Assembly (NCBI RefSeq): GCF_016428875.1
Contig: NZ_JAELTO010000004.1
Coordinates: forward strand, 1 to 64,000
Direction of reading: 5' to 3'
DNA length: 64,000 nt
DNA from: Xylophilus sp. ASV27
GTDB taxonomy: Bacteria > Pseudomonadota > Gammaproteobacteria > Burkholderiales > Burkholderiaceae_C
Shown here: positions 6,373-64,000 of the stretch, one piece after another
Layout: the number at the start of each line of letters is the position of its first letter
Position numbering within the stretch: position 1 is the first letter of the stretch
Notes under the pieces: model-generated
What the model was told of the DNA's origin: nothing
What the model saw: only the letters and a program-made list of their open reading frames with translations
The model's database searches: none
Made by a program: the position numbers and the translations under genes

Positions 6373-7475
6373 GCCTGTGTCTTCTCGAAATCGTGCAGAT
6401 AGTCGACCAGGGCCTGCACGCCGGCCATGGGCATGGCGTTGTAGAGGCTCGCGCGCATGCCGCCGACCGACTTGTGGCCCTTGAGCTGGAGCAGGCCGCG
6501 CGCCTTGGCGCCGGCCAGGAAGGCCTCGTTGCGGCTCTCGTCGCGCAGCAGGAAGGGCACGTTCATGCGCGAGCGGCAGGCTGGGTCCACCAGGTTCACG
6601 TACAACTGCGAGCGGTCGATGGCGTCGTACAGCAGCCGCGCCTTGGCCACGTTGCGCGCCTGCAGCGCCGCGACGCCCTGCAGGCCGCCTTCGGTCTGGC
6701 GCTTGATCCACTGGAAGGTCAGGCCCGCGATGTAGATACCCCAGGTCGGCGGCGTGTTGAACATGGACGCGTGCTCGGCCACGACCTGGTAGTCGAAGGC
6801 GCTCGGGCAGGCGGGCAGGGCGCGGCCCAGCAGGTCTTCGCGCACCACCACCAGCGTCAGGCCGGCCGGGCCCAGGTTCTTCTGCGCGCCGCCAAAGGCC
6901 AGGCCCACGCGCGACCAGTCCACCGGGCGCGAGGCGACGTGGGACGAGAAGTCGATCACCAGCGGGGCATCGCTGCCCAGCGCCTTCAGGTCAGGCAGCT
7001 CCTGGAATTCCACGCCGTGGATCGTCTCGTTGCTGCACAGGTGCAGGTAGCTGGCGCCGGCGCTCAATTGCCAGGTGGCCGGATCGGGGATGCGGTGGAA
7101 GCCGTCGGCTTGCGCGCTGGCGGCGACGTGGGCGCTGCAGTAGCGGCGCGCCTCCTTGACCGACTTCTGGCTCCAGCCGCCGGTGACGACGAAATCGGCC
7201 GTGCCGCCGCGCGACAGGTTCAGCGGCACGATGGCGTTCTCGGCCAGGCCGCCGCCCTGCATGAACAGGATGCGGTAGTTCGCGGGCACGGCCAGCAGCT
7301 CGCGCAGGTCGGCCTCGGCCTGCTCGTAGATGGAGATGAATTCCTTGCCGCGATGGCTCATCTCCATCACGCTCATGCCGCTGCCGTGCCAGTCGAGCAT
7401 TTCGGCCGCGGCCTGCTGCAGCACCTCTTCGGGGATGGCCGCCGGGCCGGCGGAGAAGTTGTAGGGACGGTTCAT
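6369..7475 (-). CDS. serC: Phosphoserine aminotransferase
   Basis: The 368-residue PLP enzyme converts 3-phosphohydroxypyruvate to phosphoserine and also serves pyridoxal phosphate synthesis. The start [15 protein letters not shown] matches the family; an ATG seven codons upstream is less likely. The PLP-lysine motif is in [14 protein letters not shown], and HRGKEF and the C-terminal [11 protein letters not shown] block are present. It overlaps pheA by ATGA and lies downstream of gyrA with 112 bp between, the core order of many betaproteobacteria. Confidence 0.97.
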
Positions 7476-7493
7476 CGGGCTCGCAGTCGATTT

Positions 7494-7553
7494 CAATTAA
7501 AAAGTGCCTGAAGCCCAGGTGCGCTGCCGGCTTCTAGCTATCAAATACGTAGC
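7494..7553 (+). repeat. Short AT-rich dispersed repeat (serC-gyrA gap)
   Basis: The pattern aaaaagtgcctgaagcccag, a variable middle, then ctagctatcaaatacgtagc matches the copies at 62781 and 41788. It fills about half of the 112 bp gap between gyrA and serC. Confidence 0.65.
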
Positions 7554-7587
7554 GGCGCGGGAGGCTCGCCGCGCGCCGCGCGGGGCA

Positions 7588-10248
7588 TCAGCTCGCGTCG
7601 GATGGCGGCTCGCTGCCGTCCTGCGCGTCGGCGGCCTGCTCGCCGTCCTCGGCCACGCCGGGGTTGGCATCGTTCTCGACGATGCGCTGCAGCCCGGACA
7701 GGCGCGAGCCCTCGTCCAGCCCGATCAGCGTCACGCCCTGCGTGGCGCGGCCCAGCTCGCGGATCTCGGAGACGCGGGTGCGCACCAGCACGCCGCGGTC
7801 GGTGATCAGCATGATCTCGTCGTCGGCGTGCACCAGCGTGGCGGCGACGACCTTGCCGTTGCGCTCGCTCTGCTGGATGGCGATCATGCCCTTGGTGCCG
7901 CGGCCGTGGCGGGTGTACTCGGTGATCGGGGTGCGCTTGCCGTAGCCGTTGACGGTGGCGGTCAGCACCGACTGCTGCTCGTCCTCGGCCACCAGCATGG
8001 CGATCACGCCCTGGCCCTCTTCCAGCAGCATGCCGCGCACGCCGCGGGCGTTGCGGCCCAGCGGGCGCACGTCGTTCTCGTCGAAGCGCACCGCCTTGCC
8101 GCCGTCGCTGAACAGCATCACGTCGTGCTGGCCATCGGTCAGCGCGGCGCCGATCAGGTAGTCGCCCTCGTCGAGGTTGACGGCGATGATGCCGGCCTTG
8201 CGCGGGTTGCTGAATTCATCCAGCGCGGTCTTCTTGACGGTGCCCATGGAGGTCGCCATGAACACGTACTGGTCGGACGGGAAGCTGCGCTTGTCGCCGG
8301 TCAGCGGCAGCACCACGTTGATCTTCTCGCCTTCCTGCAGCGGGAACATGTTCACGATCGGCCGGCCGCGCGAGCCGCGCGAGCCCGCCGGCACTTCCCA
8401 GACCTTGAGCCAGTAGAGCCGGCCGCGGTTGGAGAAGCACAGGATGTAGTCGTGCGTGTTGGCGATGAAGAGCTGATCGACCCAGTCGTCTTCCTTGGTC
8501 TGCGTCGCCTGCTTGCCGCGGCCGCCGCGCTTCTGCGCGCGGTACTCGTTGAGGGGCTGGCTCTTGATGTAGCCGGTGTGGCTGAGCGTCACGACCATGT
8601 CGGTCGGCGTGATCAGGTCTTCGGTGGAGAGGTCGAAGGAGCTGTGCTCCACCAGGCTGCGGCGCGCGCCGAGCTTGCTCTGGCCGAACTCGGTCTTGAT
8701 CGCGCTCAGCTCGTCGCCGATGATGGTCGAGACGCGCTCTGGCCTGGCCAGGATGTCGAGCAGATCCTCGATGACCGACATCACCTCCTTGTACTCGGCC
8801 ACGATCTTGTCCTGCTCCAGCCCGGTCAGGCGCTGCAGGCGCATCTGCAGGATTTCCTGCGCCTGGGTTTCGGACAGCCGGTAGAGGCCGTCCGCGCCCA
8901 TGCCGAAATTGGCCTCCAGGCCTTCGGGGCGGTAGTCGTCGGAATTGATCACGCCGCCGTCGGCGCGCGTGCGGGTGAGCATCTCGCGCACCAGCTTGCT
9001 GTCCCACGGGCGGGCCATCAGCTCGGCCTTGGCCACCGGCGGCGTCGGCGCGTTGCGGATGATGGCGATGAAGTCGTCGATGTTCGCCAGCGCCACCGCC
9101 AGGCCTTCGAGCACGTGGCCGCGGTCGCGCGCCTTGCGCAGCTCGAACACCGTGCGGCGCGTCACCACTTCGCGGCGGTGCTGCAGGAACACCGAGATCA
9201 GGTCCTTCAGGTTGCACAGGCGCGGCTGGCCGTCCACCAGCGCCACCATGTTGATGCCGAAGGTGTCCTGCAACTGGGTCTGCTTGTAGAGGTTGTTGAG
9301 CACCACCTCGGGCACTTCGCCGCGCTTGAGTTCGATCACCAGGCGCATGCCGGACTTGTCCGACTCGTCCTGGATGTGGCTGATGCCCTCTATCTTCTTC
9401 TCGTGCACCAGCTCGGCCATGCGCTCCTGCAAGGTCTTCTTGTTGACCTGGTAGGGCAGCTCGTCCACGATGATCGCCTGGCGCTGGCCGCGGTCGATGT
9501 CCTCGAAGTGGCACTTGGCGCGCATCACCACCTTGCCGCGTCCGGTGCGGTAGCCATCCTTCACGCCGTTGATGCCATAGATGATGCCGGCGGTGGGGAA
9601 GTCCGGCGCCGGGATGATCTCCATCAGCTCGTCGATGCTCGCCTCGGGGTGGCGCAGCAGGTGCAGGCAGGCATCCACCACCTCGTTCAGGTTGTGCGGC
9701 GGAATGTTGGTGGCCATGCCCACCGCGATGCCGGCCGAACCGTTGACCAGCAGGTTGGGCAGCTTGCTGGGCAGCACCAGCGGCTCCTTCTCGCTGCCGT
9801 CGTAGTTGGGGCCGAAATCGACCGTTTCCTTGTCGATGTCGCCCAGCATCTCGTGGGCGATCTTGGCCAGGCGGATTTCGGTGTACCGCATGGCCGCGGC
9901 GTTGTCGCCGTCGACCGAGCCGAAATTGCCCTGGCCGTCCACCAGCATGTGGCGCAGCGAGAAATCCTGCGCCATGCGCACGATGGTGTCGTACACCGCG
10001 CTGTCGCCGTGCGGGTGGTACTTGCCGATCACATCGCCGACGATACGCGCCGACTTCTTGTACGGCCGGTTCCAGTCGTTGTTGAGCTCGTGCATGGCAT
10101 ACAGCACGCGCCGGTGCACCGGCTTGAGGCCATCGCGCGCATCGGGCAGCGCGCGGCCCACGATCACGCTCATGGCGTAATCGAGGTAGCTGCGCCGCAT
10201 TTCCTCTTCAAGACTGATGGGCAGCGTTTCTTTGGCGAACTGGGTCAT
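7588..10248 (-). CDS. gyrA: DNA gyrase subunit A
   Basis: The 886-residue protein is the DNA-cleaving subunit of gyrase. The catalytic tyrosine is in AAAMRYTE. The quinolone-resistance region reads [19 protein letters not shown], with Ser and Asp at the positions equivalent to E. coli 83 and 87, the unmutated state. The GyrA box needed for negative supercoiling is QKRGGRG, and six C-terminal beta-pinwheel blades follow. The ATG at 10248 begins [20 protein letters not shown]. An acidic tail ends the protein. A TAAAAT -10-like hexamer on the minus strand (10286-10281) lies close upstream, but I see no good -35. Confidence 0.98.
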
Positions 10249-10359
10249 GAAGAGCAGGCTTTACGGCGGAAGGAGGACCGATTTTACGGGCAACTCCTTG
10301 TCGCTCTGCAGCAACACATCGCCGTGAATGCGTGGCTGTCCTACGGGGGGCGTGCCGTT

Positions 10360-10388
10360 TTGGCAACGATTCCCCAGAGCGCTATGGC
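10360..10388 (+). promoter_or_regulatory. Candidate sigma-70 promoter for ompA
   Basis: TTGGCA (10360-10365) and TATGGC (10383-10388) are separated by 17 bp. This is upstream of ompA with a leader of about 80 nt, and the AGGAGA Shine-Dalgarno sequence sits just before the ATG at 10476. Motif match only. Confidence 0.45.
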
Positions 10389-10475
10389 ACAATGAATTCA
10401 ACGTTTTTGGTGATGGTCACTGACGACGTACTGAAATCGCAGCGCGGCTGCGGCTTTTTCCCCAAGAGGAGAACC

Positions 10476-11144
10476 ATGAAGAAACTGAACAAAGTAGCGA
10501 TGTTGTTTGCCGCTGCAGCGCTCGCCTCCGCCGCTGGCGCCCAGACCCGCGTCACTGCAGCCAACGACGGCAGCGTGGTCGACAACTGGCAGAACGGCAC
10601 GGGTGAACTGGTCTGGAAGAACGGCACCAATGAGTACTGCTGGCGCGATTCCAACTGGACCCCCGCTACTGCAGCCAAGGGTTGCGACGGTGCTCTGGTC
10701 CCCGTGGCCACCACGGTCGCTCCTCCTGCCGTCGTGCCGCCGGCACCGCCCGCCGTGCAACCGCCGCCACCGCCTGCACCGCCGGCTGCCAGCAAGGTGA
10801 CCTATGCTGCCGACGCGTTCTTCGACTTCGACAAGTCCGTGCTCAAGCCCGAAGGCCGCGCCAAGCTCGACGACCTGGTCAGCAAGATCAAGGGTGTGAA
10901 CCTCGAAGTGATCATCGCCGTGGGCCATACCGACTCCATCGGTACCGTTGCCTACAACCAGAAGCTGTCGGTCCGCCGTGCCGAAGCCGTCAAGGCCTAC
11001 CTCGTGTCCAAGGGCATCGAGAAGAACCGCGTGTACACCGAAGGCAAGGGCAAGAGCCAGCCGATCGCGGACAACAAGACCGCCGAAGGCCGCGCAAAGA
11101 ACCGCCGCGTGGAAATCGAAGTGGTCGGCACCCGCGCCAACTAA
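10476..11144 (+). CDS. ompA: OmpA-family outer membrane protein
   Basis: The 222-residue precursor has a signal peptide (MKKLNKVAMLFAAAALASA, cleavage probably after AGA). A short domain of about 65 residues follows, then a Pro-rich linker (VVPPAPPAVQPPPPPAPPA), then a C-terminal OmpA/MotB peptidoglycan-binding domain with FFDFDKSVLKPEGRAKLDDL and the motif HTDSIG...NQKLSVRRAEAVKAYL. No eight-stranded barrel precedes the linker, so it is the short OmpA type common in this family, not the E. coli form. The start follows AAGAGGAGAACC. It is divergent from gyrA and has a strong terminator downstream. Confidence 0.93.
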   Translation: MKKLNKVAMLFAAAALASAAGAQTRVTAANDGSVVDNWQNGTGELVWKNGTNEYCWRDSNWTPATAAKGCDGALVPVATTVAPPAVVPPAPPAVQPPPPPAPPAASKVTYAADAFFDFDKSVLKPEGRAKLDDLVSKIKGVNLEVIIAVGHTDSIGTVAYNQKLSVRRAEAVKAYLVSKGIEKNRVYTEGKGKSQPIADNKTAEGRAKNRRVEIEVVGTRAN

Positions 11145-11160
11145 TCCTTCCGGGATTACC

Positions 11161-11196
11161 AAAAAAGCCCGCAGGCTTCGGCTTGCGGGCTTTTTT
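11161..11196 (+). terminator. Intrinsic terminator after ompA
   Basis: A 10-bp stem GCCCGCAGGC/GCTTGCGGGC with one G-U pair and a UUCG loop is flanked by six A on the left and six T on the right, so it could work in both directions. It ends the ompA transcript before ubiG. Confidence 0.92.
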
Positions 11197-11232
11197 ACGT
11201 CTGTACCTTATTCGTCGTGGAAAATGCGGGCC

Positions 11233-11952
11233 ATGAGTGCAAACCTGAATGTCGATCCGGCCGAACTGGCCAAATTCTCCGAACTGGCCCACCGCTGGTG
11301 GGACCCCGAAAGCGAATTCCGGCCCTTGCACCAGATCAATCCGCTGCGGCTGGACTGGATCGAGTCCAATGCCCCCCTGGCGGGCCGCAAGGTGCTGGAC
11401 GTAGGCTGTGGCGGCGGCATCCTGGCGGACGCCATGGCGCGACGGGGCGCGGACGTGCTGGGCATAGATCTGGCCGCCAGGTCGCTCAAGGTGGCGCGGC
11501 TGCATGCACTGGAGGCGCAGACGACTGGCGTCGAGTACCGCGAGGTCAGCGCCGAGGCGCTGGCGATGGAGCAGCCGGGGCGGTTCGACGTGGTGACCTG
11601 CATGGAAATGCTGGAGCACGTGCCGCAGCCGGCATCCATCGTGCGGGCCTGCACGGAACTCGTGAAGCCTGGCGGCTGGGTGTTCTTCTCCACCATCAAC
11701 CGCAATGCCAAGGCCTTCCTGCTGGCCATCGTGGGCGCGGAGTATCTGCTCAACCTGCTGCCGCGGGGCACGCATGAGTACGCCAGGCTGATCCGTCCCA
11801 GCGAACTGGCGGCCTTCTGCCGCGAGGCGGGCCTGGAGCCGCAGCATGCGCGGGGATTGCAGCACAACCCGCTGACCGGGCGCTACTGGTTGAGCGAGGA
11901 CACCAGCGTCAACTACCTGATGGCCACCCGGCGTCCTGCCGATGCGGAGTGA
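11233..11952 (+). CDS. ubiG: Ubiquinone biosynthesis O-methyltransferase
   Basis: The 239-residue SAM-dependent enzyme performs both O-methylations in ubiquinone synthesis. It begins MSANLNVDPAELAKFSELAH, followed by RWWDPESEFRPLHQINPLRL, a UbiG signature. Motif I is VLDVGCGGGILADAMARRGA, and the acidic ribose-binding residue follows in VLGIDLA. A second in-frame ATG nine bases upstream is possible. Its stop lies 5 bp before the gph ATG, so the two are cotranscribed. Confidence 0.95.
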   Translation: MSANLNVDPAELAKFSELAHRWWDPESEFRPLHQINPLRLDWIESNAPLAGRKVLDVGCGGGILADAMARRGADVLGIDLAARSLKVARLHALEAQTTGVEYREVSAEALAMEQPGRFDVVTCMEMLEHVPQPASIVRACTELVKPGGWVFFSTINRNAKAFLLAIVGAEYLLNLLPRGTHEYARLIRPSELAAFCREAGLEPQHARGLQHNPLTGRYWLSEDTSVNYLMATRRPADAE

Positions 11953-53442: not shown

Positions 53443-54765
53443 TCAGCTGCGGCGGCGGATGACCAGGGTGCGCCCGGTTCCCGGGCCCTGCTCCTTTTCC
53501 TGCACCTCTTCCTGCACGCTGACCGGCAGGGTGCGCGGCAGCATGCGCAGCCAGCCCTGGGCCGCCGCAATGCGCACGCGCCCCAGCACGGGCAGGGCGG
53601 CGGCGTCGGGCTCCACGCGCAGGGGCTGCAGGCTGTAGCGCTCCAGGCGGCGGGCGACCTCGGCCAGCGGCGTGTTCTGGAAGTCCAGCCAGCCCTCGCG
53701 CCAGGCGGCCACTGCCGCAACGGTTTGCACGGCGGCCGTCTGGCCTGGCGCCAGGCGCAACATCTGTCCTGCACCCAGTTCATGCCGGGCGCCGCTGCCG
53801 TCGCGCACCTGCACGCGGCCCGCATCGACGGCGACCAGCACCGCATCGTCCTCCAGCGCCACCTCGAAGCGCGTGCCCAGCACGGTGACCTGTACGTTCG
53901 CCGCCTGGACCACGAAAGGCCGTTCCGTGTCGCGCGCCACGGCGAAGAAGGCGCTGCCGGCCAGCAGCCGCACCTGGCGGCGCGTGGCGTAGAAATCCAC
54001 CTCGGCACGGCTGGCGGCGTCCAGCGTCAGGGTGCTGCCGTCGGGCAGGGGCTGGTTCAGCAGGCGGCCGGTGGCGGTGGCCAGCCGCACCTGATATTGC
54101 GGCATCCATTGACGCCAGGCCAGCCAGATCGCCGGGCTGCCGACACCCAGGCCCGCCATCCCCAGCAGGGTGGACAGGGCGCGGCGGCGGCCCGTGCGTG
54201 GTGCGGGTGCTGCGGTGTCTCCGCGCCAGCGGCGCAGCGAGGCTTCCACGCTGTCCATGGCACGCATGACCTCGCGTTCCACGGTTTTGACCGAGACGCC
54301 GTGGCGCTCGGCCAGCTCGGCATGCGAGGCGCCCTCGATGCGGTCGGCCAGGAAGATGTCGCGGCAGCGCGCCGGCAGCTGCGCCAGGGCTCCTTCGACC
54401 CCGGCCAGGGCCTGGCGGTAGGAGTGGGTGTCGGCCACATCGGGGCTGAGGGGGGAGGGCGGCTCGCCTTCCCTCGCGCTGGTGTCGAAGCGCTCGGCCG
54501 TGCGCTGGCCATGGCGCAGGTGGTCGATGGCGATGTTCTCCACCACCGCGTAGAGATAGGCGCGGCTGGCGCCTGGCGGACTGTCCGGCGCGGCGGGCGC
54601 ATCGCTTTCGCCGCGCTGGCGTTCGGCCAGGCGTATCCAGGCGTCATGCACCAGGTCACGCGCGGCCTGCGGGCCGGCGCGGCGCGCCACGAAGCGCACC
54701 AGCTCGTGGTAGCTGTCCTGGAAGGTGCTCAGCAGGGAAGAAGAGAAAGAGGCGGGCGCGGGCAT
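53443..54765 (-). CDS. Fused ECF sigma factor and FecR-like anti-sigma (IutY-like)
   Basis: One 440-residue frame contains a whole FecI-type sigma factor (region 2 about residues 15-90, LVHDAWIRLAE and YLYAVVENIAIDHLRHG; region 4 about 120-180, LPARCRDIFLADRIEGASHA and VKTVEREVMRAMDSVEASLR). A single membrane segment (about 197-217) follows, then a periplasmic FecR domain (GRLLNQPLPDGSTLTLDAAS, AANVQVTVLGTRFEVALEDD) and a short C-terminal STN-like part. FecI and FecR are normally separate genes; the known fused case is IutY of Pseudomonas putida. The Leu-Gly-Thr in VLGTRFEV is where FecR-type proteins self-cleave. It probably drives the downstream receptor gene. Confidence 0.92.
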   Translation of the reverse strand: MPAPASFSSSLLSTFQDSYHELVRFVARRAGPQAARDLVHDAWIRLAERQRGESDAPAAPDSPPGASRAYLYAVVENIAIDHLRHGQRTAERFDTSAREGEPPSPLSPDVADTHSYRQALAGVEGALAQLPARCRDIFLADRIEGASHAELAERHGVSVKTVEREVMRAMDSVEASLRRWRGDTAAPAPRTGRRRALSTLLGMAGLGVGSPAIWLAWRQWMPQYQVRLATATGRLLNQPLPDGSTLTLDAASRAEVDFYATRRQVRLLAGSAFFAVARDTERPFVVQAANVQVTVLGTRFEVALEDDAVLVAVDAGRVQVRDGSGARHELGAGQMLRLAPGQTAAVQTVAAVAAWREGWLDFQNTPLAEVARRLERYSLQPLRVEPDAAALPVLGRVRIAAAQGWLRMLPRTLPVSVQEEVQEKEQGPGTGRTLVIRRRS

Positions 54766-58928: not shown

Positions 58929-59626
58929 CCACCCTGCCCCAGGCCACCGTGCCGCCCATCACCGAAGACGACATCGCCAACTACCTGGCCAACTCCCCCG
59001 ACTTCTTCGAGCGCCATGCCGAGGTGCTGGCCTCGGTGCAGCTCACCAGCCCGCACGGCCAGCGCGCCGTGAGTCTGCAGGAGCGCCAGGCCGAGATGCT
59101 GCGCGAGAAGATCAAGGCGCTGGAGCAGCGCGTCATGGAGATGGTGCGCAACGGCAACGAGAACACCCTTATCGCCGACCGCCTGCAGCGCTGGGCGGTG
59201 CAACTGGCCGGCACGCGCGAGGCGGCGGAGCTGCCCGCGCGCATGGTGGCCGAGGCGCAGGAGCAGTTCCTGGTGCCGCAGGCGGCGATCCGCCTGTGGG
59301 ACCTGGCGCCGCAGTACGCGGGCGCCGACTTCACCCAGGGCGTGGACGCCGACACCCGCAGCTTCGCCGCCTCGCTGGGCGCGCCCTATTGCGGGCCGAA
59401 CCGCGGCTTCGATTCGGTGCGCTGGCTGGCCGAGCCGGCGCGCGCCGCCTCGCTGGCCCTGCTGCCGCTGCGCCAGGGCCCGGCCGCCGCCGGCGGGCCG
59501 GTGTTCGGGCTGCTGGTACTGGCCTCGGCCGACGCCAGCCGCTTCGAGACCCACATGGGCACGGATTTCCTGGAGCGCATGGCCGAACTCGCCGGCGCTG
59601 CCCTGGGGCGCCTGCGCGCCGCCTGA
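58925..59626 (+). CDS. DUF484 family protein
   Basis: The 233-residue protein has the typical N-terminus ([20 protein letters not shown]), a coiled-coil stretch ([20 protein letters not shown]) and a GAF-like C-terminal domain. It is always found between dapF and xerC in proteobacteria; function unknown. It is translationally coupled to dapF (ATGA), and xerC starts 5 bp after it. Confidence 0.92.
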
Positions 59627-59631
59627 GCCCC

Positions 59632-60597
59632 ATGGAGCAGGCGCCGCCGCCGGCCGACCCGCTGCTGCGGCGCTACCTGGACCACGTGCGCTTCGAAAAG
59701 CGCCTGGCCGAGCGCACCGTGGCGCTGTACACGCTGGACCTGGACAAGCTCGCCAGCGCCTGCGCGGGCGCGGGCGTGGCGCTGGCCGAGGCGCGGCACC
59801 ACCACATCCGCCGCTTCGTCGCGCAGATGCACGGCGCCGGCCGCAGCGGCCGCGGCATCGCGCTCATCCTCTCGGGCTGGCGCGGCTTCTATGCCTGGCT
59901 CGGGCAGCAGGGGCTGATCGCGCAGAACCCGGTGCAGAACGTGCGCGCGCCCAAGTCGCCCAAGCCCCTGCCCAAGGCGCTGGGCGTGGACGACGCCATG
60001 CACCTGGCCGAGCACGCGCCCGAGCCCGCCGACCCCGAACACGCCTGGCTCGACGCGCGCGACGGCGCCATGGTCGAGCTGTTCTATGGCTGCGGCCTGC
60101 GCGTGGGCGAACTGGTCGGGCTGGACGCCGCCCCCTGCGCCGCCGCGCAGCAGGCCGGCCACGGCTGGATCGACCTGCAGGACGGCATGGTCCACGTCTG
60201 CGGCAAGGGCCGCAAATGGCGCAGCGTGCCGATCTCCGGCAAGGCGGCCGAAGCCATCGCCGCCTGGCTGCCGCAGCGCCTGCTGGCGCTGCCGGCCGAG
60301 GCGCTCGGCCAGCCGGCCCTGTTCCCCGGCCGGCGCGGCACCCGCCTCACCGCCCAGGCCGTCTGGCAGCGCCTGCGCCAGCGCAGCCAGGCCGCCGGGC
60401 TGGCGGCGCCGGTGCACCCGCACATGCTGCGCCATTCCTATGCCAGCCACCTGCTGCAGTCCAGCGGCGACCTGCGCGCCGTGCAGGAACTGCTGGGCCA
60501 CGCCAGCATCACCACCACCCAGGTCTACACCCGGCTCGACTTCCAGCACCTGGCGCAGGTCTACGACGCGGCCCATCCGCGGGCCAGACGCAAGTAG
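59632..60597 (+). CDS. xerC: Site-specific tyrosine recombinase XerC
   Basis: The 321-residue recombinase resolves chromosome dimers at dif with XerD. The catalytic residues are Arg in YGCGLRVGELVGLD, Lys in CGKGRKWRSVPI, H-x-x-R in HPHMLRHSYASHLL, His in LLGHASITTTQVY and the Tyr of that motif. The dapF-DUF484-xerC order is the canonical one. It is convergent with the flagellin gene, 14 bp apart. Confidence 0.96.
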   Translation: MEQAPPPADPLLRRYLDHVRFEKRLAERTVALYTLDLDKLASACAGAGVALAEARHHHIRRFVAQMHGAGRSGRGIALILSGWRGFYAWLGQQGLIAQNPVQNVRAPKSPKPLPKALGVDDAMHLAEHAPEPADPEHAWLDARDGAMVELFYGCGLRVGELVGLDAAPCAAAQQAGHGWIDLQDGMVHVCGKGRKWRSVPISGKAAEAIAAWLPQRLLALPAEALGQPALFPGRRGTRLTAQAVWQRLRQRSQAAGLAAPVHPHMLRHSYASHLLQSSGDLRAVQELLGHASITTTQVYTRLDFQHLAQVYDAAHPRARRK

Positions 60598-60611
60598 GGC
60601 GCGAGCGGCGA

Positions 60612-62216
60612 TCAGCCCTGCAGCAGCTTCAGCACGTTCTGCGGCATCTGATTGGCCTGCGCCACCATCGCCGTGCCGGCCTGTTGCAGGATCTGCGCGC
60701 GCGCGAGATTGGCGGTTTCCGCGGCAAAGTCGGCGTCGATGATGCGCCCGCGCGCGGTGGAGAGGTTCTCGGTCTGCACGTCGATGCTGTTCACCGCCTT
60801 CTCGAAACGGTTTTGCATCGCGCCGAGCTTGGCGCGGGACGTGCTGACCTGGTCCACGGCGCTGTCGAGCTTCTTGAGCGCGATCCAGGCGCCCTTCTGG
60901 GTGGAGATGTCGATGTTGGCAACCCCCCGCTCGTTCGCCGCGCCGGAGTTGCTGCCGATGCCCATGCCGGTTTCTTCTTTGATGTTGGAGTCCAGCACGG
61001 CGACACGGTAGGTACGGGCCAGGTTGTCCAGGGCCGCATTGGCCTTGCTCAGGTCGAGCCGGTCGTTGGGCTCATCCGGACCATTGGTATTGGGAACGAC
61101 GGCGGCCTTCACCGCTTTCACATAGGCTGTCCGAGCATCGGCCAGCGCGCTGGAGGTCATGTTGGCATTGTGCGGATCCGGGAAGGGGCCGCCCAGGCCA
61201 TTGGGGTACTGCTTTGCTGTGTCGGCAAAATCCAGGTACGACTGAAGGTCTTTGGCGCTGCTGCCCGGGCTCCCGGTGGCGCCTGAGCGCGCCTTCTCGG
61301 CCAGGGGGGCCAGAAAGTCATCCTTCAAGTAGTGGTCGGCAGCATCGGGGTAAGTGGGGCCCACCCCTGTCGTCTGCGGCGTGAAGCCGAAGAACTCGAC
61401 CGCGTTGTAGCCCAGGCGATAGCCGTCCGGTGTGGTGCCATCGGACATGAAGTCGATCTTCACGTTGTCCGAGCCGTCCACCTTGCTCAGATAGGCGGTG
61501 ACGCCATGCTGATCGTTGGTGGCGTTGATGGCCGCCACCACCTGGCCCAGGCGCTCCATCCCGCTGCTGGCCGGGGGGATGGCCCCCAGATCCACCAGTC
61601 CGTTCTTGCCGAGAATCTGCAGTGTGCCCGCGGGAATAGATTCGGTGTACTTGGTTGCAACGGCGGGGTTCTGCGTGCGGGTGAGGGTGCCGTATGTCAC
61701 GCCGGAGAGCTGGTCGGCCCGCGCATCCACGAGTGAGTCCAGGGTGATGCTCTCGCCCGAATTGGCGCCTGCCTGGAACACGGCGCCGGCAAAGCTGCCG
61801 TCCAGCACCTTCTGTCCATTGAACTTGGTCTGCTTGGCCAGGCGGTCGATTTCCGCGGTCAGTTGGGCGACTTCGTCCTGCAGGTTCTTGCGGTCGCTGC
61901 CGCCGTTGGTGGCGTTGGACGCCTGCACCGCCAGTTCGCGTATGCGCTGCAGCATGTCGCCGATGCTGCCGAGCGAGCCTTCCGCCGTCTGTGCCAGGGA
62001 AATGCCGTCGTTGACGTTGCGCGACGCGACCGACAGGCCCCTGACCTGGGTGTTCATGCGATCGGCGATCGCCAGGCCGGCGGCGTCGTCCTTGGCGCTG
62101 TTGACGCGCAGGCCCGAGGAGAGGCGCTGCATGGTGGTGCTCAAGGACTGTCCGGACAGCGCCAGGTTGCGCTGCGCGTTGAGGGACACAACGTTGGTGT
62201 AGATCGTCGACGCCAT
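60612..62216 (-). CDS. fliC: Flagellin, stand-alone gene
   Basis: The 534-residue flagellin has the conserved D0/D1 N-terminus (TNVVSLNAQRNLALSGQSLS, MQRLSSGLRVNSAKDDAAGL, AIADRMNTQVRGL) and C-terminus (NRFEKAVNSIDVQTENLSTA, QILQQAGTAMVAQANQMPQN, VLKLLQG). A variable middle of about 300 residues has no similarity I recognise. No other flagellar gene (fliD, fliS, flgK) is nearby and no sigma-28 promoter is visible upstream. Instead the upstream gap carries four CTACG-N5-CGTAG palindromes shared with a divergent XRE regulator. Confidence 0.95.
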   Translation of the reverse strand: MASTIYTNVVSLNAQRNLALSGQSLSTTMQRLSSGLRVNSAKDDAAGLAIADRMNTQVRGLSVASRNVNDGISLAQTAEGSLGSIGDMLQRIRELAVQASNATNGGSDRKNLQDEVAQLTAEIDRLAKQTKFNGQKVLDGSFAGAVFQAGANSGESITLDSLVDARADQLSGVTYGTLTRTQNPAVATKYTESIPAGTLQILGKNGLVDLGAIPPASSGMERLGQVVAAINATNDQHGVTAYLSKVDGSDNVKIDFMSDGTTPDGYRLGYNAVEFFGFTPQTTGVGPTYPDAADHYLKDDFLAPLAEKARSGATGSPGSSAKDLQSYLDFADTAKQYPNGLGGPFPDPHNANMTSSALADARTAYVKAVKAAVVPNTNGPDEPNDRLDLSKANAALDNLARTYRVAVLDSNIKEETGMGIGSNSGAANERGVANIDISTQKGAWIALKKLDSAVDQVSTSRAKLGAMQNRFEKAVNSIDVQTENLSTARGRIIDADFAAETANLARAQILQQAGTAMVAQANQMPQNVLKLLQG

Positions 62217-62239
62217 GAAGGCTCTCCTGCATGTGTGGA

Positions 62240-62404
62240 CTACGTAATTCGTAGTTGCGCAAGCGTAAATCTATTGATCCACAAGAAAGGGCGAAGTAGC
62301 GCGGGAAAAACTACGTAATTCGTAGTTTCGCCGTCATGTATCTTCTGATTGCATACTACGTACTACGTAGTGTCGAAAACGCCCCGCACCTACGAATCTC
62401 GTAG
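62240..62404. promoter_or_regulatory. Four CTACG-N5-CGTAG palindromic operators
   Basis: Perfect 5-bp arms with a 5-bp centre occur at 62240-62254 (centre TAATT), 62311-62325 (TAATT), 62356-62370 (TACTA) and 62390-62404 (AATCT). The first three also share A and T at the flanks. Centre-to-centre distances are 71, 45 and 34 bp. The set fills the 204 bp between fliC and the XRE gene, as expected for operators of that regulator. Confidence 0.82.
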
Positions 62405-62420
62405 CCTTTTGAGGCAAGAG

Positions 62421-62750
62421 ATGTCCCAAGCGGATGAACAGTGGGGCGCACGGCTGAGGCAGGCGCGTGTGGCGGCTGGCTTGTCGCAAAAGAAGCTGGG
62501 GATCGAGGCGGGGATCGACGAGTTCGTGGCCAGCACCCGGATCAACCGCTACGAACTGGGCGTCCACAAGCCCGATCTGCAGACCGTGAGAAAGCTGGCG
62601 GCCGTGCTGAAAGTGCCGGTGGCCTTCTTCTATTCCGATCAGGACGATGACGTGGCGGCGTTGCTGCTGCGCTACTGGCAGGCCGACGATCAGGCACGGG
62701 CCCAGGCGATGGCGGTGCTGGAGCCGTTCGTGCCGGGCCCGAATGCCTGA
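62421..62750 (+). CDS. XRE-family helix-turn-helix regulator
   Basis: The 109-residue protein has an N-terminal HTH of the Cro/CI type (WGARLRQARVAAGLSQKKLG, IEAGIDEFVASTRINRYELG, KPDLQTVRKLAAVLKVPVAF) and a short acidic C-terminal tail. The start MSQADEQWG at 62421 follows GAGGCAAGAG; a frame upstream to 62349 would run through two of the palindromes. It is divergent from fliC and is the likely binder of the four operators, including its own leader. Confidence 0.9.
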   Translation: MSQADEQWGARLRQARVAAGLSQKKLGIEAGIDEFVASTRINRYELGVHKPDLQTVRKLAAVLKVPVAFFYSDQDDDVAALLLRYWQADDQARAQAMAVLEPFVPGPNA

Positions 62751-62780
62751 TCCGCGCCGCGGCGCGGCCGGTTGCACGCC

Positions 62781-62849
62781 ATTTTTTGATAAAAAGTGCC
62801 TGTAGCCCAGGTAGTACCTGGGCTATCAGCTATCTATTCAATAGCGTAT
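62781..62849 (+). repeat. Short AT-rich dispersed repeat
   Basis: This is the clearest copy: ttttttgataaaaagtgcct, gtagcccaggtagtacctgg, gctatcagctatctattc, aatagc. It contains an internal inverted repeat CCCAGGTAgTACCTGGG. It lies just before rluE. Confidence 0.75.
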
Positions 62850-62858
62850 GCTGCCTGC

Positions 62859-63419
62859 ATGTCCGTTTCCCCTGCGCCGCGCCTGATCCGTTTCCACAAG
62901 CCCTACGGCGTGCTCAGCCAGTTCACCGCCGAAGGGCGCTGGCGCGGGCTGAAGGATTTCATCGACCTGCCGGGCGTGCAGGTGGCGGGCCGGCTGGACG
63001 CCGACAGCGAGGGCCTGCTGCTGCTCACCAGCGATGGCCGGCTGCAGGCGCGCATCGCCGACCCGCGCTTCAAGATGGAGAAGACTTACTGGGTGCAGGT
63101 CGAGGGCGTGCCGCACGAGCGCGCCCTGGCCGCCTGGCGCGGCGGCGTGTTGCTCAAGGACGGCCCCACGCGCCCGGCCCGCGCGCGCCTGCTTGCGCCG
63201 CCGCCCGCCGTGGGGGAGCGCGATCCGCCGATCCGCGTGCGCCGGGCCATTCCCACCACCTGGCTGGAGCTGGCGATCCGCGAGGGCCGCAACCGCCAGG
63301 TGCGGCGCATGACGGCGGCGCTGGGTTTTCCCACGCTGCGCCTGCTGCGCGTGGCCATTGGCCCCTATACGCTCGACGGCCTGGCGCCCGGGGCCTGGGC
63401 GGCGGCGCCGCAGGCCTGA
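62859..63419 (+). CDS. rluE: 23S rRNA pseudouridine synthase RluE-like
   Basis: The 186-residue enzyme lacks an S4 domain, as RluE does. Its motifs are RFHKPYGVLSQF, the active-site VAGRLDADSEGLLLLTSDG with the catalytic Asp, EKTYWVQVEG and EGRNRQVRRM. Unlike the RluF-like protein at 54.9 kb, its active site is complete. It precedes an RlmI-like methyltransferase by 12 bp, so the two may be cotranscribed. Confidence 0.93.
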   Translation: MSVSPAPRLIRFHKPYGVLSQFTAEGRWRGLKDFIDLPGVQVAGRLDADSEGLLLLTSDGRLQARIADPRFKMEKTYWVQVEGVPHERALAAWRGGVLLKDGPTRPARARLLAPPPAVGERDPPIRVRRAIPTTWLELAIREGRNRQVRRMTAALGFPTLRLLRVAIGPYTLDGLAPGAWAAAPQA

Positions 63420-63431
63420 CAATCGCCCCCC

Positions 63432-64000
63432 ATGAAAACCCTGCGCCTGCGCGAAGGCAAGGAGCGCTCGCTCCTGCGCCGCCATCCCTGGATATTTGAA
63501 TCGGCCATCGCCAAGGGCGGCGGCGACAGCGGCGAGACGGTGCGCGTGGAGTCGCATGACGGCCGCTTCCTGGCCTGGGCGGCGTTCAGCCCGGCCTCGC
63601 GCATCCGCGCCCGGGTCTGGAGCTTCGACGAGGGCCAGCGCATCGACGCTGGCTTCTTCCACGCCGCGCTGGCGCGCGCCATTGCCGCGCGTGCCTGGTT
63701 CGACATTCCGAGCGACAGCCTGCGCCTGGTGCACGGCGAGTCCGACGGCCTGCCGGGCCTGGTGGTGGACCGCTACGGCGAGGTGCTGGTGGCGCAGTTC
63801 GGCGCGGCCGGCGTCGAGCGCTGGAAGGCGCAGATCGCCGACGCGCTGCTGCAGATCACCGGCTGCCGCCAGCTCTACGAGCGCTCGGACGCCAGCGCGC
63901 GCGGGCTGGAAGGCCTGCCGGCGGTCACCGGCTGGCTGCGCGGCGACGCTGCGGCGCCGACCGAACTGACCATCCGCGAGCACGGCTGGCGCCTGACGCT
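63432..64000 (+). CDS. rlmI: RlmI-like class I rRNA methyltransferase, N-terminal fragment
   Basis: The first 189 codons are present; the gene runs off the right edge. An N-terminal PUA domain (LREGKERSLLRRHPWIFESA, SPASRIRARVWSFDEGQRID) is followed by the typical RLVHGESDGLPGLVVDRYGE, as in RlmI/RlmK-type 23S rRNA cytosine-C5 methyltransferases. The SAM-binding domain is outside the window. Confidence 0.88.
   Translation, partial: MKTLRLREGKERSLLRRHPWIFESAIAKGGGDSGETVRVESHDGRFLAWAAFSPASRIRARVWSFDEGQRIDAGFFHAALARAIAARAWFDIPSDSLRLVHGESDGLPGLVVDRYGEVLVAQFGAAGVERWKAQIADALLQITGCRQLYERSDASARGLEGLPAVTGWLRGDAAAPTELTIREHGWRLT

Follow-up and report, generated by a model that had tools for sequence, protein, structure and literature searches.

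We propose that an accessory flagellin gene and the small regulator gene divergent from it form a mobile two-gene cassette, in which filament expression would follow the level of the regulator, without FliA, through one operator pair before the flagellin gene and an OL/OR pair before the regulator's own gene; we give this reading a probability of about 0.78. What is new here is the apparent recruitment of a regulator of a known class, with altered specificity, to a flagellin carried by a small mobile cassette. Controller proteins are timers for the safe entry of restriction systems into new hosts. In the present case, a filament gene is joined to a close relative of such a controller, whose operator arms are altered and which apparently moves with the gene, and the bacterium may change its flagellar filament via a switch borrowed from a defence system. 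The pair also offers a small system, of only two genes, in which to test whether surface structures reuse the timing switches of defence systems. Among the matches listed in searches of the open-access literature, we found nothing that treats restriction-modification (R-M) controller proteins jointly with flagellin, and a search with the operator letters found nothing on this regulator among the matches listed.

Two divergent genes and four operators

The flagellin gene (fliC-like, 60612..62216, minus strand) has an intact frame of 534 aa that matches the Pfam models Flagellin_N and Flagellin_C. Divergent from it is the gene for an XRE protein of 109 aa (62421..62750, plus strand), and the gap between the two occupies 62217-62420, which agrees with the 204 bp given by an earlier note on this DNA. 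That note had also described four perfect-armed copies of CTACG-N5-CGTAG in the gap. We find them in the window (the whole stretch of DNA analysed, 64 kb long) with starts at 62240, 62311, 62356 and 62390; shuffled versions of the window held 0.01 copies on average, and at least four sites were reached in none of 100 shuffles. The genome-wide count that the note had proposed likewise bears it out: across 4,734,550 bases in 468 contigs the palindrome occurs four times, all inside the fliC/XRE gap, while the reversed-pattern control has 31 matches in the same genome.

The four sites fall into two pairs. O1 (fliC-proximal, CTACGTAATTCGTAG, 62240..62254) stops 23 bases short of the start codon of fliC, and O2 (fliC-distal, CTACGTAATTCGTAG, 62311..62325) is 71 bp from O1. 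O3 (OL-like, CTACGTACTACGTAG, 62356..62370) stands 34 bp before O4 (OR-like, CTACGAATCTCGTAG, 62390..62404), as in homologues, and this pair, with a spacer of 19 bp, precedes the controller's own gene, whose start codon comes 16 bases after O4. The link that the note drew between the operators and the XRE gene holds up, in that palindromes of this kind belong to this XRE family, face both genes and, within this genome, are unique to the gap. We predict, from the sequence, that they are binding sites of the XRE controller. Within 62200-62440, no promoter passed a strict sigma-70 scan in either direction, and a terminator scan found none. Elsewhere in the window, a 440-aa frame at 53443-54765 (minus strand) resembles, by eye, a fusion between a sigma factor of the FecI type and a regulator of the FecR type, and adjoins a TonB-dependent receptor frame.

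Class and predicted specificity of the regulator

Only general helix-turn-helix models of Pfam match the XRE protein. In a profile search against solved structures the best match was C.Csp231I (E 2.8e-31), followed by PDB 4o8b (E 1.1e-28), which the structure title identifies as BswR; a single-sequence search gave the two in the same order (E 2.1e-21 and 2.6e-18). The best PADLOC model is "control protein" (E 6.1e-22). An AlphaFold model (pLDDT 91.6, from the 24-row alignment A4) has seven helices, at residues 3-19, 23-29, 37-46, 53-63, 67-70, 76-87 and 90-103, and a fold search superposed it on chains of C.Csp231I with an rmsd of 0.8-1.2 and on BswR with an rmsd of 1.1. The traits of the C.Csp231I class are largely present: the seven-helix fold includes the extra helices 6 and 7, and two 15-bp palindromes (5-N5-5) with a long spacer lie 5' of the regulator's own gene. 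The recognition arms are CTACG instead of CTAAG, and the class's operon with a restriction enzyme and a methylase is missing; as none of the nine flanking proteins scanned with Pfam is an R-M protein, we call the regulator an "orphan" relative and no R-M controller proper. Because of the structure, PADLOC and fold-model matches, we assign the XRE protein to the C.Csp231I class as an orphan controller (C) protein, and do not regard it as a CI/Cro repressor.

C.Csp231I targets two CTAAG-N5-CTTAG sites, with 18 bp between them, before its own gene, and contacts bases through Ser32, Gln37 and His43 (PMC4321490). In the structure-search alignment these residues correspond to S38, R43 and H49 of the XRE controller, so that one contact differs (Gln37 to Arg43) and one base per arm differs. 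To compare residues and arms more widely, we drew homologues from a family search (28 of 299 genomes at E 1e-10 or better, the window's genome included) and from a collection of 84,980 species (the best 80 of 142 relatives), and tabulated 119 rows including the window's own, after removal of 8 duplicates and of 1 row that lay close to the end of its locus. Rows with Ser/Arg/His at the three positions had CTACG arms in 90 of 93 cases and no recognised arm in the other 3; those with Ser/Gln/His had CTAAG in 7 of 11 and none in 4. Homologues with Arg at position 38 (L044, L033, L039, L032 and L034) pair with TCACG or TTACG, and these arms accompany Arg/Arg/His in 5 of 8 rows, the remaining 3 having none; this class, defined post hoc after a first look at the data, is a possible third specificity. 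The last 7 rows comprise 3 with CTACG and 4 with none.

When mapped on the tree, residue 43 and the operator have two changes each, which agree with one another, although two independent changes at this residue are too few for significance in a sign test. The agreement between residue and base across homologues, together with the contacts of C.Csp231I, strongly suggests that the controller binds CTACG-N5-CGTAG. The match of Gln or Arg to CTAAG or CTACG would offer a simple rule of recognition that can be checked in a large group of regulators, most of which are unstudied.

The 34-bp arrangement (core TACG-N5-CGTA) recurs 76 times in 62 of the 80 homologue loci, in addition to the window. In several enterobacterial homologues an ATG appears, by eye, 2-3 bases after the second site, which would fit a leaderless message like that of C.Csp231I (PMC4824078). 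Enterobacterial relatives often carry two such pairs about 0.4-0.7 kb apart (L078, L082, L108, L122, L128, L136 and L140), and L078 has another gene of this controller family behind its upstream pair. Luteimonas granuli (L102) has eight perfect CTACG-N5-CGTAG sites, spread between 3.7 kb on the upstream side of its controller and 5.5 kb on the downstream side, in clusters of similar spacing. Paired sites with G or C beside the arm (e.g. CTACGGAATNCGTAG) occur in six family genomes (L144, L145, L149, L150, L153 and L154, that is G047, G164, G099, G395, G285 and G215); in several of these no close controller homologue was found, so another regulator may use similar arms. An oligonucleotide in the oligonucleotide table of a Vibrio CRISPR-transposon study (PMC12150760) contains CTACGTAGCTACG.

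Occurrence and mobility of the cassette

The earlier note had suggested looking for the XRE-fliC pair in related genomes. This succeeded in part: in five loci a flagellin is divergent from the controller and has two extra operators before it, while 75 of the 80 controller-homologue loci have no flagellin match. The five are those of the window, G283, G213, the Comamonas isolate ISORED-1 (L062) and Acidovorax sp. NO-1 (L067). Their flagellin-side pairs are spaced by 71, 70, 70, 73 and 70 bp, respectively, one site of the ISORED-1 pair having one mismatch; their controller-side pairs are all spaced by 34 bp, and in 3 of the 5 the outer site carries a single mismatch. A blind search of 399 family genomes for two perfect sites 67-75 bp apart returned 3 genomes (the window's, G213 and G283), each time at the cassette flagellin, against 1 of 399 for the reversed control. 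Pairs 30-60 bp apart were found in 14 of the 399 (reversed control 3 of 399), and in none of the five other same-genus genomes among them. The flagellin of G213 is truncated, at 190 aa. A short open frame of some 35 codons, seen by eye, follows the proximal operator on its flagellin side in the Acidovorax-type cassettes and seemingly overlaps the start of the flagellin (L045 before 8624, L067 above 9573, L047 above 671).

Two further loci were considered as cassettes and set aside: in C. testosteroni SWCO2 the flagellin is 0.8 kb away behind another gene and has no fliC-side operators, and in JL40 it is about 6 kb from the controller. For the wider controller family, no common partner emerged among 78 loci, whose ORFs were picked mechanically. 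A flagellin was the upstream neighbour in 3 of the 78, and among the families listed (25 of 26 and 25 of 56, the downstream survey covering all loci but L110) the neighbours were otherwise single or double matches, bar helix-turn-helix proteins and transposases.

With respect to one sister species, fliC and XRE are an inserted small cassette. In that sister, G232, xerC directly adjoins a pseudouridine-synthase gene, where the window has 2,166 bases (2.17 kb) more, at 60587..62752; the flanks are 89.6% and 88.8% identical, and the empty site is known from this sister only. Four other sisters have the pseudouridine-synthase gene with no xerC within the 1.5 kb examined, and in one sister the gene was unmatched. 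The recombinase gene xerC stands next to the cassette in the window and is present in the cassette-free G232 as well. A Salmonella-type inversion switch was also considered: the region 59500-63500 holds 34 weak inverted pairs, and among the 25 listed, which are 72-93% complementary, no repeats are placed to flip the fliC promoter.

The cassette also appears to have moved horizontally. In a tree of flagellin N-termini (n=29), the window's flagellin groups with two flagellins of ISORED-1 (support 97/95), apart from its own genus, and the six controller-near flagellins (the five cassettes and SWCO2) imply at least two label changes, which points either to an exchange of flagellins or to more than one origin of the pairing. 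In the controller tree, which has few columns and many unresolved forks, the controllers of the five cassettes and of SWCO2 fall in one 22-row group (support 95) together with 16 controllers that have no flagellin. A megablast search for plasmid copies of the cassette DNA gave no match; the regulator alone had matches in 391 plasmid records, and in 390 the identity was under 60%.

Beside three cassettes, PADLOC matched BrxL and PglZ (G213), Hp1-Hp3 (G283) and PDC-S06 (NO-1). The scanned neighbours were chosen by eye, and the link to defence genes is only a lead. In another genome (L046 of G289, 7304-11276), a close controller relative without a flagellin adjoins CBASS-type matches (a SAVED/HNH effector and E1-E2).

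Proposed control of the flagellin and comparison with known systems

The earlier note had described fliC as a stand-alone flagellin with no sigma-28 motif before it. The gene does stand alone by position, but it is not the only flagellin of the genome, as a second one, of 284 aa, is encoded on contig C12. Scored against the FliA (sigma-28) consensus, the C12 flagellin has a FliA-type motif, TCAAGTTT-N11-CCCGAAAA, 174 bases upstream (13/16), and the gene behind it reads, by eye, as fliD; one FliA in the genome exceeds the family cut-off. Upstream of fliC the best score is 9/16, inside the shuffle range of 8-12, as the note would have it, and the six controller-near flagellins score 9-10. Among 23 other flagellins, 10 score at least 13 and 13 score below, while none of 600 shuffles reaches 13. 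Since 13 of 23 ordinary flagellins also go without a strong score, the missing motif argues only suggestively against FliA control of fliC.

No operator occurs within two mismatches on the C12 contig. Judging by sequence, the controller is therefore unlikely to act on the C12 flagellin, and the accessory and C12 filament proteins could coexist. The other four cassette genomes each have further flagellins elsewhere. Nor were operators found upstream of eight flagellins of the same-genus genomes G361, G399, G232 and G020. These genomes (L220-L223) have head-to-head flagellin pairs, usually with one member that scores strongly for FliA, which the single short flagellin on C12 does not resemble; in one of seven genus genomes (G148) a flagellin match is absent. 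Compared with ISORED-1, fliC has a dN of 0.41 and a dS of 0.97, and XRE a dN of 0.15 and a dS of 0.99, which points to purifying selection on both genes.

In the mechanism that we propose, a dimer of the controller would bind CTACG-N5-CGTAG. At its own promoter, with the OL/OR pair O3/O4 (34 bp), a low dose would activate via OL and a high dose would repress via OR; for C.Csp231I, activation is lost when OL is mutated and repression when OR is mutated (PMC4824078). In general, combined positive and negative feedback can yield mixed populations, such as the on/off subpopulations that the note had raised as a possibility. The flagellin gene would have the second, flagellin-specific pair O1/O2 (71 bp), and filament expression would track the level of the controller, with FliA playing no part. 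As to the sign of this control, we lean modestly towards repression, in which O1 would lie near the transcription start and two dimers would bridge O1 and O2. Repression is favoured by the position of O1, 23 bases from the start codon, with O2 about seven helical turns upstream, an arrangement better suited to bridging by two dimers than is the 34-bp geometry of self-activation.

Alternatively, the same parts could work in the opposite sense, the controller activating a weak fliC promoter; it would have to accumulate first, and the new filament would be delayed. C.Csp231I does switch on its own promoter through OL (PMC4824078), and the lack of a strong sigma-70 promoter, which is what an activator-dependent promoter would be expected to show, leaves room for this. 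The fliC-side spacing of 70-73 bp is however unlike the 34 bp of the own-gene pair, and in the window only a short distance separates O1 from the start codon of fliC, so we regard activation as possible, at clearly less than even odds. It is unlikely that the controller governs only itself, with the flagellin as passive cargo and the flagellin-side operators as leftovers: most relatives of the controller have no adjoining flagellin and one cassette flagellin is truncated, but two flagellin lineages have kept the flagellin-side pair at 70-73 bp, and purifying selection acts on the flagellin. We consider it quite unlikely, too, that FliA drives fliC from a degenerate promoter beneath a minor overlay of operators. 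FliA is present, and 13 of the 23 other flagellins also lack a strong score; against this, the best score for fliC is within that of shuffles and none of the six controller-near flagellins scores above 10.

The earlier note had taken the regulator for a phage-repressor-like, CI/Cro-like switch, a view that did not survive the comparison with solved structures, where its nearest relatives are C.Csp231I and BswR. Phage repressor chains appear in the fold search from about rank 29-34, with E near 0.03, rank 29 being what we take to be a lambda repressor mutant. Capture from a prophage would account for the XRE fold, the paired-operator self-regulation and the divergent genes, and one viral contig has a 34-bp pair beside a regulator that looks, by eye, like a member of this family. 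A phage origin is nevertheless disfavoured by a single, weak match (36.8% identity) in 50,697 phage records. A switch of two opposing repressors also fits poorly with a single 109-aa regulator whose divergent gene is a flagellin; no second Cro-like gene or C-terminal cleavable domain was seen in the 109 residues, and a Pfam scan of nine neighbours on the window side showed housekeeping genes rather than a prophage setting. We therefore hold a captured phage switch to be highly improbable, and prefer control of fliC by the level of an orphan controller.

More speculatively, orphan restriction-type controllers with re-coded operators might carry accessory flagellins from one genome to another as self-timed filament-replacement cassettes, often beside anti-phage genes, so that a change of surface is delayed; this generalisation is doubtful. 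If it is true, the surface met by flagellum-binding phages or hosts changes after a delay set by the controller.

The closest known system is that of the type II restriction-modification controller C.Csp231I (with C.EcoO109I), which shares sequence (E 2.1e-21) and the seven-helix fold with the window's controller, has two 5-N5-5 palindromes before its own gene (spacer 18 bp there and 19 here), and has the Ser and His base-contact residues that are kept here. It differs in pairing CTAAG with Gln37 where the window pairs CTACG with Arg43; in addition, the window's controller has a second operator pair before a flagellin, and no R-M genes are among its scanned neighbours. BswR of Pseudomonas aeruginosa (PDB 4o8b) is of the same structural class, and its deletion raised the expression of flagellar and pilus genes; it lowers flagellar gene expression indirectly, via the small RNA rsmZ (PMC3985676), and acts at the palindrome ACCCGGCGTTCGCCGGGT rather than on a divergent flagellin. 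Its effect on motility means that a motility link in this structural class has precedent, albeit of a different kind.

In Salmonella flagellar phase variation, FljA is the small regulator. S. Typhi reportedly carries on a linear plasmid a second flagellin, H:z66, that was gained horizontally with a small regulator, and in this respect the Salmonella systems resemble the cassette; the regulator type and gene layout are different, and the classical case uses DNA inversion. VpxR, of a Vibrio parahaemolyticus CRISPR-transposon, is a small XRE regulator that regulates itself and represses a divergent gene (PMC12150760). Compared by description, it is like our controller, as proposed, in combining self-regulation with control of a divergent gene on a mobile element, and unlike it in its cargo, a guide array and a hypothetical gene. 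SinR and SlrR of Bacillus subtilis act directly on the flagellin gene. The N-terminal domain of SinR is a distant fold match to the window's controller (ranks 11 and 15). These XRE-type proteins are tied to the choice between motile and sessile states and to mixed populations (PMC6123443), and they represent global regulation, as opposed to the two-gene cassette described here.
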